Origin: Noviherbaspirillum massiliense JC206
GTDB taxonomy: Bacteria > Pseudomonadota > Gammaproteobacteria > Burkholderiales > Burkholderiaceae_D
DNA length: 64,000 nt
Direction: 5' to 3'
Assembly: GCF_000312045.1 (NCBI RefSeq)
Contig: NZ_HE978634.1
Location: forward strand, 2,683,875-2,747,874
The stretch's first letter is position 1, and each line of letters begins with the position of its first letter. The notes under the pieces were generated by a model, which saw only the letters and a program-made list of their open reading frames with translations, did not search any database and was not told where the DNA came from. Positions 14,766-18,067 of the stretch are shown one piece after another. Made by a program: the position numbers and the translations under genes.

Positions 14766-15143
14766 TCAGGAATTCGTCTTGTCCAGCTGGCGCCTGTCGC
14801 GCTTGGTCGGACGCCCCTTGATTGCCTCGCTTGGCTCCCGGAAAAACCGTCTTTTCTCGGCTTTTTCCTGCCGGAGAGCAATACTCTTTTCGGTTTCTTC
14901 ATACAGGGTCTGCGCCGCGGATGCCGGGCCGCGTACATCGGACAGGCCGCGCACGACGACTTCCCATTCGGTTGAGCCGTTATCGATGTCCAGGATGTCT
15001 CCGGGCTTGATGCTGCGCGCAGGTTTTATCCGGTCGCCATTCAGGCGCACCTTGCCTCCGTCCACGGCATCGGTCGCCAACGAACGGGTTTTGAAAAATC
15101 GGGCTGCCCACAGCCATTTATCGATACGTACAGATTCAGTCAT
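14766..15143 (-). CDS. hslR: S4-domain RNA-binding heat-shock protein Hsp15
   Basis: Hsp15 binds free 50S subunits carrying nascent peptidyl-tRNA and helps recycle stalled ribosomes. The 125-residue product begins with the S4 domain signature RIDKWLWAARFFKTRS, followed by AVDGGKVRLNGDRIKPARSIKPGD. The basic tail (KRDRRQLDK) is typical of the family. The length matches E. coli HslR (133 residues). It stands as a single gene on the minus strand between the fatty-acid operon promoter and the ferritin-like cluster; no heat-shock promoter was identified with confidence. Confidence 0.93.
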   Translation of the reverse strand: MTESVRIDKWLWAARFFKTRSLATDAVDGGKVRLNGDRIKPARSIKPGDILDIDNGSTEWEVVVRGLSDVRGPASAAQTLYEETEKSIALRQEKAEKRRFFREPSEAIKGRPTKRDRRQLDKTNS

Positions 15144-15362: not shown

Positions 15363-16136
15363 TCAGTGCAGCGGAGCGGGCGTCCCCACTTCGTCGATTG
15401 TTCCAGCTGTGACGGACGTGCCCAAGATTGCTTCCTCAAACCACTTGCGCACACGCATCAGATGGGAGCGCTCTTCGTTCAAGGCGGCAGTGAAATCGCT
15501 GACCATCGCATGCCGGCCATTGTCTTCTGCAAGCGTGATCAGCAATTCCCAGCCAGCATTGTCCGTCATCTCGGCAATCAGGATTGCATGCAGGGACTGC
15601 GCCAGCGAGGTGCGAGGATCTGTCACCACTTGCACCAGCCCCATGGATTCGACGCCGGTCACATCGGCGCACGGCGTTTGCGCTGTCGGGTCGCCGCCGA
15701 TCGACTCGATCGCACTCTTCACGATGGAGAAATGCCTTGCCTCGTCGTCCCTGATCTGCTCCAGATCTTCCCTCGTCATGCTCGACGCACTCTCCTGCAA
15801 GCCGTCCAATTTTGCAATCAGGGCGTCATACAGGCGGGCACCGGTGCGCTCGAACGCGAGACGCTCACCCAGCTTGTCGATCAGCAGTTGCGGGTTGTTC
15901 CCGGTCACCATTGATACACCGGTCGTAACGGCACCTTTTACAGTGCCAGGCACTGGCACCGATCCGACCGGGTCCGCATCTGCGGTATATGCACTGCGGA
16001 TCCGGGTCAGGGCCGAATCATCTCCGGGCGTCCTCGGCGCGGAGGGAGTTGCGGTGGCATCTGTCATTTCATCGGTGTCGAAGGGCGACATATGACTGCC
16101 CGTGCGATTCATACCGATCGATGTTGAATCTTTCAT
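15363..16136 (-). CDS. Ferritin-like domain protein with complete diiron ligand set (uncharacterised)
   Basis: I do not recognise a named family. The 257-residue product has a polar, disordered-looking N-terminus (residues 1-80) and then a four-helix ferritin-like domain. The ligand pattern is complete: Glu96, E132-A-R-H135, Glu189 and E222-R-S-H225, which is the E...ExxH...E...ExxH pattern of diiron proteins. The frame is open upstream to 16256, but the ATG at 16136 follows an AAAAGGAAC ribosome site and avoids overlap with the next gene. It is 34 bases downstream of the second ferritin-like gene and probably co-transcribed with it. An oxidase, iron-storage or peroxide-detoxifying role is possible but not shown. 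Confidence 0.8.
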   Translation of the reverse strand: MKDSTSIGMNRTGSHMSPFDTDEMTDATATPSAPRTPGDDSALTRIRSAYTADADPVGSVPVPGTVKGAVTTGVSMVTGNNPQLLIDKLGERLAFERTGARLYDALIAKLDGLQESASSMTREDLEQIRDDEARHFSIVKSAIESIGGDPTAQTPCADVTGVESMGLVQVVTDPRTSLAQSLHAILIAEMTDNAGWELLITLAEDNGRHAMVSDFTAALNEERSHLMRVRKWFEEAILGTSVTAGTIDEVGTPAPLH

Positions 16137-16170
16137 TGCTGTTCCTTTTTTCAATCGCAATCGAACGAAC

Positions 16171-17343
16171 TCAGGCGTTGGCCGCAACCCGACGATTGAT
16201 CTCCGTGCCGGGCACCCATATGTAGCCGGCAGCCACCGATTCGCTCGGCGATCCATCAGAGTTCAAGTGATCACGATAGTCGATCGAAGCCTGGCTTTCC
16301 TGCGACTTGTCGACGAATTGGGTTCCCTTCGAGCGCAGGTCGACTTCGCGCGCCAGGGTTTGCCGGACAAAATCGCGCTGGCTGGCGAAGCTGATGGGCT
16401 CGGGCAAGTCTCCCGGAACGACTTCCATCGGGTCACGCCTTTCATGCTTCTTGAACAGCTCGACGACATGATGGAAATGCCCCAGCTCGTAATCCAGGAA
16501 ACGTTCCCAGATCGCCTTGATGCGAGGATTCGTTTCCTGCTGCACGCAGCTGTAGTAGTTGTAGACCTCGGCTGCCTCATGCAGCAGCCATTTCTCCATC
16601 AGCGATTCCCTCGGGTCGAGCAGGGATTCGTACTGGGTCACATGCTGCTCTTCGATGGATGCGATTTCCGCATACAACTGCCGCGCGACCGGGTCCGCGA
16701 ACAGCGGGCCGATATTCAAGTAATAGTTTTGAGTCTGCTGTTCGGAGGCGGTAAGAGTTAATGCGTGCAGCTTCGTCAGCGGAGCTGCAGCGGCGGCATC
16801 GTAGGGTTCGCGCAGGTCATCCTCGGGCGCGCGATGCTCGATGATGGTAGGCCGCCCGGGCAGGATGTCGGTATAGCTTTGCAGGATGTTGTTGGCATCC
16901 TTGCCTTCCAGCCGGTCCAGCAGCGCGGCATACCGGTACATGTGATCGAAGTCTTCGAGCAAGCCGTAACGGTAAACCTGAGCGAGATAGGGGTCGGGCT
17001 CGCGCTGCGCAACGGCTGCCGTTACCTCGATGGCCACCTGTTCATAGGCGATCGTGGTTTCAAGCGGAGAGTGGTCGGCACCCAGCAGCCAGTTCACCAT
17101 GGTCGCCTGATGATTTTCCACACGCCTGATCTGCGCAAGCGCCGGGCGCAGTGCGCTGCTCATTCTCGCCGCCGCATGCTGAAAGCGCAGCGCCTCCTGC
17201 TCAATGCCATTCATCAGAATGACGCGCACCCGGGTGAATGCATCGTCATCGAGCTTGCTGATCGGCTTGCCGGCAATGTCCTGCCACGTGAAGCGCTGCT
17301 GCTCGAGCGCATATCCTTTTGAGCTGTACAGATTGAAAGCCAT
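16171..17343 (-). CDS. Double ferritin-like protein, one half canonical and one half degenerate (uncharacterised)
   Basis: This 390-residue protein appears to contain two ferritin-like four-helix units. The C-terminal unit has the full diiron pattern: Glu201, E231-E-Q-H234, Glu256 (or Glu259) and E286-L-G-H289. The N-terminal unit keeps similar spacing with altered ligands: Glu48, E76-N-H78, Glu101 and D131-F-D-H134. The helix-3 to helix-4 distance is 30 residues in both halves (101 to 131, 256 to 286), which supports an internal duplication. The last 90 residues are polar. It has no signal peptide, so it is cytoplasmic. It sits in a three-gene cluster with another ferritin-like protein and a flavin-type split-barrel protein. 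The function is unknown. Confidence 0.75.
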   Translation of the reverse strand: MAFNLYSSKGYALEQQRFTWQDIAGKPISKLDDDAFTRVRVILMNGIEQEALRFQHAAARMSSALRPALAQIRRVENHQATMVNWLLGADHSPLETTIAYEQVAIEVTAAVAQREPDPYLAQVYRYGLLEDFDHMYRYAALLDRLEGKDANNILQSYTDILPGRPTIIEHRAPEDDLREPYDAAAAAPLTKLHALTLTASEQQTQNYYLNIGPLFADPVARQLYAEIASIEEQHVTQYESLLDPRESLMEKWLLHEAAEVYNYYSCVQQETNPRIKAIWERFLDYELGHFHHVVELFKKHERRDPMEVVPGDLPEPISFASQRDFVRQTLAREVDLRSKGTQFVDKSQESQASIDYRDHLNSDGSPSESVAAGYIWVPGTEINRRVAANA

Positions 17344-17452
17344 GACTCTTCCTTTACTGAAACACTGTCAGCAATATCCGCCGGCAAATGACCGGAAGGG
17401 AACCGCACGCGCAGGTTCAGACTGACCGAACGCCGTGTGCCAACACGAGGTC

Positions 17453-17953
17453 TTAGATTTGCACGTTCCGATGCTCGCCCAAGGCATCGGTGTTGCCGGT
17501 GGCAATCCCCTTGGCCAACCCGTACAGCCGCTTGGCCATGCTGCCGGGCGCATCCCAGTATTCAGCGTCGTCGATCCTGATCCTCATCAGGATCAGATCC
17601 GGGTCGTCGAGGCCATTCGGAAACCACGGTTTGACCCACGGGCTCCACAATTCCTTCATCTTGTCCTTGTCGCGCACAATTTCAGCCGATCCCGAAATGG
17701 ACAGGTAGTCCTGCTTGTCTGGGCGCGAGTAGCTGAGGTTGATTTCATGGTGCCGCTCCGCCTCCTCGACCTTGAGCGAAGAAAGTCTGGTGAAGAACCA
17801 CAGGCAGCCAGCCGCATCCATCTGCATGGTTGCCATCGGACGGCTGCGCAAAGTGCCATCCATTCCTTCTGTGGTCATCATCGCGAACTTGATGTCCTTC
17901 ACCATCTCTGCCACTTTCTCCAGTCCTTCATGGCGCTGCTCTTGCACATCCAC
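17453..17953 (-). CDS. Pyridoxamine 5'-phosphate oxidase-like split-barrel protein (general stress protein 26 type)
   Basis: The 166-residue product resembles the FMN-binding split beta-barrel family typified by Bacillus general stress protein 26. Visible segments include KVAEMVKDIKFAMMTT, GTLRSRPMATMQMD and LWFFTRLSSLKVEE. The middle part (NLSYSRPDKQDYLSISGSAE) is typical of this group. I chose GTG 17953 because AAAGGAG precedes it by six bases; the longer frame to 18037 has no such site. It is the first gene of the cluster with the two ferritin-like proteins, behind an ECF-type promoter candidate. A flavin- or F420-related redox role under stress is the family expectation; the substrate is unknown. 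Confidence 0.85.
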   Translation of the reverse strand: MDVQEQRHEGLEKVAEMVKDIKFAMMTTEGMDGTLRSRPMATMQMDAAGCLWFFTRLSSLKVEEAERHHEINLSYSRPDKQDYLSISGSAEIVRDKDKMKELWSPWVKPWFPNGLDDPDLILMRIRIDDAEYWDAPGSMAKRLYGLAKGIATGNTDALGEHRNVQI

Positions 17954-18042
17954 GGCGAACTCCTTTTCGTAAAAGATGGTCCTGCAACAGGACCCATTCC
18001 TGGCCGGGGCGGGCGCTGAGCGCGTCGCACCGGTCACGGACT

Positions 18043-18067
18043 GACGCGTTCAAAAATGTAAAGTTCC
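18043..18067 (-). promoter_or_regulatory. Candidate ECF/stress sigma-factor promoter of the ferritin-like cluster
   Basis: On the minus strand GGAACTT (18067-18061) is followed by CGTC (18046-18043), with exactly 16 bases between GGAAC and CGTC. This matches the GGAAC-N16/17-CGT shape used by several ECF sigma factors, and the first element also fits RpoE. It lies about 90 bases upstream of the GTG of the split-barrel gene. The wider gap 17954-18278 holds no other gene. The motif is seen; use by a particular sigma factor is inferred. Confidence 0.5.

Follow-up and report, generated by a model that had tools for sequence, protein, structure and literature searches.

Noviherbaspirillum massiliense JC206 encodes, next to one another on the minus strand, two predicted diiron ferritin-like proteins whose pairing exceeds chance. 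The genes, here called P2 (16171-17343; a 390-residue double ferritin-like protein) and P1 (15363-16136; 257 residues), lie in a 64,000-nucleotide stretch of contig NZ_HE978634.1, hereafter the window, to which all coordinates refer. A first-pass annotation of the window had grouped them with a third gene, P3, and the three open reading frames (257, 390 and 166 residues) are where it had placed them. The analysis establishes the pairing of P2 with P1 and the conservation of their metal ligands, and predicts a ferritin-like fold for each protein. From this we infer metal binding, docking of P1, a redox chemistry and a role in stress. In the reading we favour, whose chances we put as about even, P2 and P1 would form a two-protein diiron module: an interlocked double bundle with P1 docked on it, carrying out ferroxidase or peroxidase chemistry under stress. 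The pair probably handles iron and peroxide under such conditions.

A scan of species-representative genomes returned 243 relatives of P2, and the counts of pairing, flanking genes and P3 use the best 80 of these 243. In 78 of the 80 loci P1 follows directly downstream of P2, with order and strand unchanged; at both loci without P1 (L015 and L040) the contig stops approximately 150 bases past P2. The gap between the two genes has a median of 26 bp (range -8 to 400) in the 75 pairs measured, a count that leaves out five loci, namely the two without P1 and three with a stop met in the open reading frame walk. P2 is approximately 68-82% identical across almost its full length in these best 80 of 243 loci. 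Genera named in the titles of their records include Noviherbaspirillum, Massilia, Cupriavidus, Lysobacter, Pseudomonas, Azotobacter and Methylobacter. The nearest relatives found were in Noviherbaspirillum and other Burkholderiales.

Co-occurrence was also counted in genome samples. Among 294 sampled genomes of the family, P2 was present in 36, P1 in 39 and both in 35; P2 stood alone in G277 and P1 in G423, G443, G245 and G421. Among 398 sampled genomes of the phylum, P2 was found in seven and a strong P1 match in six, all six with P2, and G642 carried P2 without P1. Two of the six strong P1 matches cross one stop codon, and four further weak matches, with expectation values (E) of 4e-7 to 2e-13, cover profile positions 91-240 or less. 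Clustering of open reading frames in 74 of the 80 loci produced P1 and P2 clusters covering 73 loci each. No third conserved neighbour emerged from these 74 loci, the largest clusters away from P1 and P2 holding 14. Six other clusters of at least 20 loci were rejected because their median position marked them as frame shadows over P1 or P2. These neighbour and co-occurrence counts indicate that the conserved module is P2-P1 and that P3 is a local addition. The earlier suggestion that the two ferritin-like proteins belong together is thus upheld, both by their adjacency and by the 35 family genomes they share.

The N. massiliense genome itself holds a second P2-P1 copy on contig C2 (L101:8006-10003), with P2 75% and P1 approximately 60% identical to the window proteins. 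Seven plasmid records also carry P2; three annotate it as hypothetical and four list no gene there. At one further site (G429:C1:4178561-4179518) the P2 match runs in two frames with its middle absent, from either a broken gene or a sequencing error.

P2 is highly conserved yet, like P1, reached no Pfam or NCBIfam family above cut-off, and a single-sequence search of solved structures gave only 4jys, at E 0.93. Its structure was modelled, as were all structures here, as a monomer, with a predicted local distance difference test (pLDDT) score of 91.9 and a predicted template modelling (pTM) score of 0.91. The alignments of the model to ferritins comprise 50 listed rows. Thirty of these span residues 88-92 to 242-256, whilst 13 begin at 29-32 and end at 298-304 yet align just 121-139 residues, and seven are wider or mixed. 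None of the 50 starts and stops within one sequential half of the chain. In the predicted fold, 121 residues align to mini-bacterioferritin with a root-mean-square deviation of 2.0. The two halves score as a tandem repeat (E 4.8e-6, probability 86%), and the model places short loops at residues 85-92 and 240-247.

From the alignment ranges and the conservation described below, we infer an interlocked topology in which nested hairpins of helices appear to build the two sites of P2. Helices 3-6 (residues 93-239; 16627-17067, minus strand) would make up bundle I, with the complete site E101, D131xxH134, E201 and E231xxH234. Bundle II would combine helices 1-2 (residues 35-84; 17092-17241, minus strand), carrying E48 and E76xxQ79, with helices 7-8 (residues 248-301; 16441-16602, minus strand), carrying E256 and E286xxH289. 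The first-pass annotation had described one complete and one degenerate ligand set. Both sets exist, but the helices apparently pair across the chain and not within each sequential half.

The full carboxylate and histidine set of bundle I is kept in 89 of 91 P2 sequences (the exceptions are L019 and L037) and, together with the model, would place P2 in the diiron ferritin-like superfamily. Bundle II is off-consensus in 13 of the 91, with E76D in five, E256K/Q in three and H289 replaced in 12; residue 79 is Gln in every sequence. All five D76 sequences belong to the group of 12 with H289 replaced (hypergeometric 1.7e-5, for an overlap noticed post hoc and with common descent ignored), which links helix 2 to helix 8. 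Nested pairing is further supported by the conservation pattern, mean column entropy being lower in hairpins 2 and 3 (0.36 and 0.53) than in hairpins 1 and 4 (0.77 and 0.76). Mutual information between the hairpins was computed at an effective number of sequences (Neff) of 66.

P1 has a predicted ferritin-like core (residues 82-238; 15423-15893, minus strand). Its six ligands, E96, E132xxH135, E189 and E222xxH225, are invariant across all 51 aligned sequences, the window P1 and its paralogue included, so the ligand set originally read from this gene holds. Helices are predicted at residues 82-112, 122-145, 155-172, 178-205 and 209-238, and the E-ExxH-E-ExxH pattern on four long predicted helices would make P1 a member of the diiron ferritin-like superfamily. 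The structure-prediction check suggested with the first-pass annotation was borne out for the folds, both proteins being modelled as ferritin-like.

The family of P1 is harder to name. The window protein scored 13.1 against Ferritin (PF00210; cut-off 24.5), where a Pandoraea P1 scored 33.8 and the paralogue in the same genome 24.5, marked as over. The P1 family is therefore borderline for PF00210, since these two reach the cut-off and the window P1 does not. Against DUF892 (PF05974), which holds the YciF stress proteins, window P1 with its N-terminal tail fell below the cut-off (13.6 vs 23.7) and the Pandoraea P1 was barely above it (24.3). A search of PHROGs gave no match. Among solved structures, a single-sequence search with P1 returned only 2clb (E 0.11). 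The best sequence-profile match in the PDB was symerythrin (E 1.5e-6), a eukaryotic, internally symmetrical protein for which we know of no P2-like partner. DpsL, or thioferritin, is described as marked by two conserved cysteines (PMC12532284). The window P1 contains a single Cys, and the fullest Cys columns in its family reach 43, 36, 19 and 10 of 85 sequences, so P1 differs from that group.

Ahead of its core, P1 carries an N-terminal extension of approximately 80 residues, of which residues 1-40 are poorly ordered in the model (pLDDT ~48-68). Residues 8-18 (16083-16115, minus strand) form the motif G-x-N-R-T-G-x3-S-P, which we propose as a P2-docking peptide. Across relatives the motif reads G-x-N-[RK]-T-G-x3-S-P, with N10 and T12 in 51 of 51 sequences. 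A loose form of the pattern is present in 81 of the 82 P1 proteins whose loci also carry P2; the sole miss (L063) starts with the related GMAPTG. None of the three P1 proteins examined from genomes without P2 has it (L103, L104 and L105; G245 was left out as its match lies at a contig end). In the N. massiliense genome a GMNRTG-coding pattern occurs twice, once per P1 copy. P2 also ends in a disordered stretch (residues 378-390; 16174-16212; pLDDT ~39) in which G379 and E381 are invariant in 48 of 48 sequences; it is possibly a second short binding motif.

The mechanism we favour can be set out against known systems. P2 would comprise two interlocked four-helix bundles in one chain, helices 3-6 forming one and helices 1-2 with 7-8 the other, and would resemble a domain-swapped rubrerythrin- or sulerythrin-like dimer fused into a single chain. 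Bundle I would carry a functional diiron site of the bacterioferritin type. Bundle II, with Gln for its first His and other ligands drifting, may be structural or hold a different metal set. P1 would act as a bacterioferritin/Dps-like diiron protein tethered to P2 by its flexible N-terminal motif. Fe(II) would be oxidised, with H2O2 or O2 as the oxidant, and peroxide and free iron thereby removed under stress.

Sulerythrin and ferriperoxin are described as having a short B-C loop, hairpins swapped between two four-helix bundles and a diiron site, and ferriperoxin as a peroxidase (PMC3317640). They are domain-swapped dimers of single-domain, rubrerythrin-like chains, whereas P2 has two unequal sites in one chain. 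Profile comparison of P2 with rubrerythrin-type proteins from the family detected no similarity, hhalign giving E 0.029 or worse in three comparison sets, one of which had one of its 10 rows empty. P2 had no match to PF02915 at E up to 1, and its match to the NCBIfam rubrerythrin family (E 0.06, 13.4 bits against a cut-off of 200) is below membership. Bacterioferritin and mini-bacterioferritin show the ligand pattern E-ExxH-E-ExxH (PMC13168243), like P1 and P2, and both P1 and bundle I have them among their best fold matches. They are unlike P1 in its long N-terminal extension and unlike P2 in its double bundle and the Asp in one ExxH. In bacterioferritin a haem-binding Met adjoins the ExxH glutamate of helix B; the corresponding residues are A133 in P1 and F132 and E232 in P2.

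A Tyr seven residues past each of two helix ligands is described as holding that ligand in mini-bacterioferritin (PMC13168243). The equivalent Tyr is present at Y208 and Y263 in 91 of 91 P2 sequences and at Y103 in 85 of 85 P1 sequences. Some observations weigh against the docked diiron module. T108 and the variable residue past E48 in P2, and W196 in P1, do not fit this Tyr rule. Of the tail-less P1 proteins, L103 and L104 are congeneric and one deletion could account for both losses; the solo relative at L105:2447-3007 also carries the ligand change E132K and may be a decaying or repurposed copy. With a loss possibly shared by the congeners and a ligand also lost in L105, docking on P2 is only a plausible role for the P1 tail.

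A search at title and abstract level, in literature mostly outside subscription journals, found no description of a P2-P1 pair or of a tandem ferritin-like protein. The chemistry and the superfamily are known; the architecture would be new if the topology holds. In that case an unusual fused architecture, a natural domain-swapped dimer made into one chain, would join the ferritin superfamily, and P2-P1 would offer a testable two-protein system for the handling of iron and peroxide.

A broader reading, which we hold only tentatively, makes P2 a new ferritin-superfamily architecture, produced by tandem duplication and an intramolecular swap, that serves as the hub of a diiron redox system not yet described, with lineage-specific partners. 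One P2 diiron site would have been kept and the other repurposed; the partner would be P1, bound through its short peptide motif, and elsewhere hemerythrin, DUF4142 or DUF892 proteins. In line with this, a Tistrella P2 (45% identity) lies near DUF4142 and a hemerythrin-DUF892 fusion. Other distant P2 genes neighbour DUF4142 and hemerythrin (L099), hemerythrin (L007, and L091 from Nonomuraea) or DUF4142 (L119), and the neighbours at L106 had no match to the single-sequence queries used. The L091 hemerythrin is encoded by a minus-strand frame, scanned instead of one of two other translated frames that were judged to be wrong. The one Pandoraea plasmid inspected has the order P2-P1-DUF892, and DUF892 is also near P2-P1 at L082, L094/L109 and L098. 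A Pfam scan of 148 neighbour proteins returned no more than five per family (short-chain dehydrogenases five, Usp three, hemerythrin three). As there is no background rate for these families, they serve as supporting context only and their stress flavour is weak. The stress-linked redox system envisaged by the first-pass annotation finds some support here, as the neighbours in certain lineages are of stress type or are four-helix iron proteins. Control by an extracytoplasmic function (ECF) sigma factor and the membership of P3 are not supported.

Co-assembly of P1 and P2 into a hetero-oligomeric, iron-storing mini-ferritin, with P1 forming the shell and P2 lining, capping or nucleating it, is in our view unlikely. 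The predicted P1 fold matches the cage formers bacterioferritin, thioferritin and Dps, and the mixed bacterioferritins 9h1u, 9bts and 9iig are listed among its matches. However, the P1 extension and the P2 double bundle are atypical of cage subunits, and, apart from a P1 copy, the genome already encodes three clear PF00210 proteins. More doubtful still is a role as diiron oxygenase or oxidase, with some small molecule as substrate, P2 as the catalytic part and P1 as accessory. It would explain why P2 is conserved more than P1 (mean column identity 71% vs 44%), as expected for an enzyme, and a complete site with an altered one could fit catalytic and accessory roles. Against this, the loci clustered or scanned show no recurrent metabolic gene next to the pair, both proteins keep the bacterioferritin-like carboxylate and two-His pattern, and four-helix iron-protein families recur near distant P2 genes. 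The arrangement first proposed, in which P3, P2 and P1 would form one stress system of three genes under ECF control, is very improbable and largely refuted as a general system: the shared strand, the short gaps (109 bp between P3 and P2, 34 bp between P2 and P1), the literal GGAAC-N16-CGTC upstream and the family name of P3 speak for it, but P3 seldom accompanies P2, the promoter sequence is neither enriched nor conserved and, with little weight, a terminator-like hairpin lies between promoter candidate and P3.

P3 (17453-17953, minus strand; 166 residues, GTG start) is, as first annotated, a general-stress-type PNPOx-like protein, matching PF16242 at 169.9 bits (cut-off 28.8, E 3.4e-50) and PDB entry 2i02 at E 1.5e-38. 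It is present within the fetched flank of P2 in only two of the 80 loci (L016 and L017), both Noviherbaspirillum, and was not found in the tested stretch (L009) around the second P2-P1 copy. P3 is thus a local neighbour and not a conserved member; of the three families whose co-occurrence was to be checked, only P2 and P1 keep company. L103 and L104, from two further genomes of the genus, lack P2; their translations show a P3-like gene adjoining a shortened, tail-less P1. By eye, the gene order there is SIR2-like, NTF2-like, P3, P1.

The candidate ECF promoter, GGAAC-N16-CGTC at 18043-18067 (minus strand), was rejected. The sequence is literally there, but its single match in the window compares with 0.56 expected, and 43 of 100 shuffles hold at least one. 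Genome-wide the pattern matches 48 times and its reversed form 199 times, and just one of 84 P2 upstream regions (350 bp each) contains it, so an ECF-controlled operon is not supported. Related forms did better: EcfG-like GGAAC-N16-18-GTT is present in six of the 84 regions (shuffles mean 1.0, largest 3) and GGAAC-N15-17-CGTT in four (shuffles 0.3, largest 2). These are a possible stress-sigma signal in some other lineages. A motif picked by eye upstream of P2 in some Noviherbaspirillum, TGTAAG...TGTAAAAACTG, was also discarded, with no match in the window and its shorter form in two of 102 loci. Just upstream of the P3 start, between it and the promoter candidate, lies a terminator-like inverted repeat, GGTCCTG-TTG-CAGGACC (17978-17994), which may be an operator, an attenuator or chance. 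It weighs little against transcription from that candidate because a scan for such hairpins found four sites where 2.5 were expected in the stretch.

The gene that comes next after P1, also on the minus strand (14766-15143), we take to be Hsp15-like (S4 RNA-binding); a gene that we presume to be of the same type lies near the P3-P1 locus in L104. The second P2-P1 copy on contig C2 is followed by a gene that, read by eye, is isopropylmalate-synthase-like.

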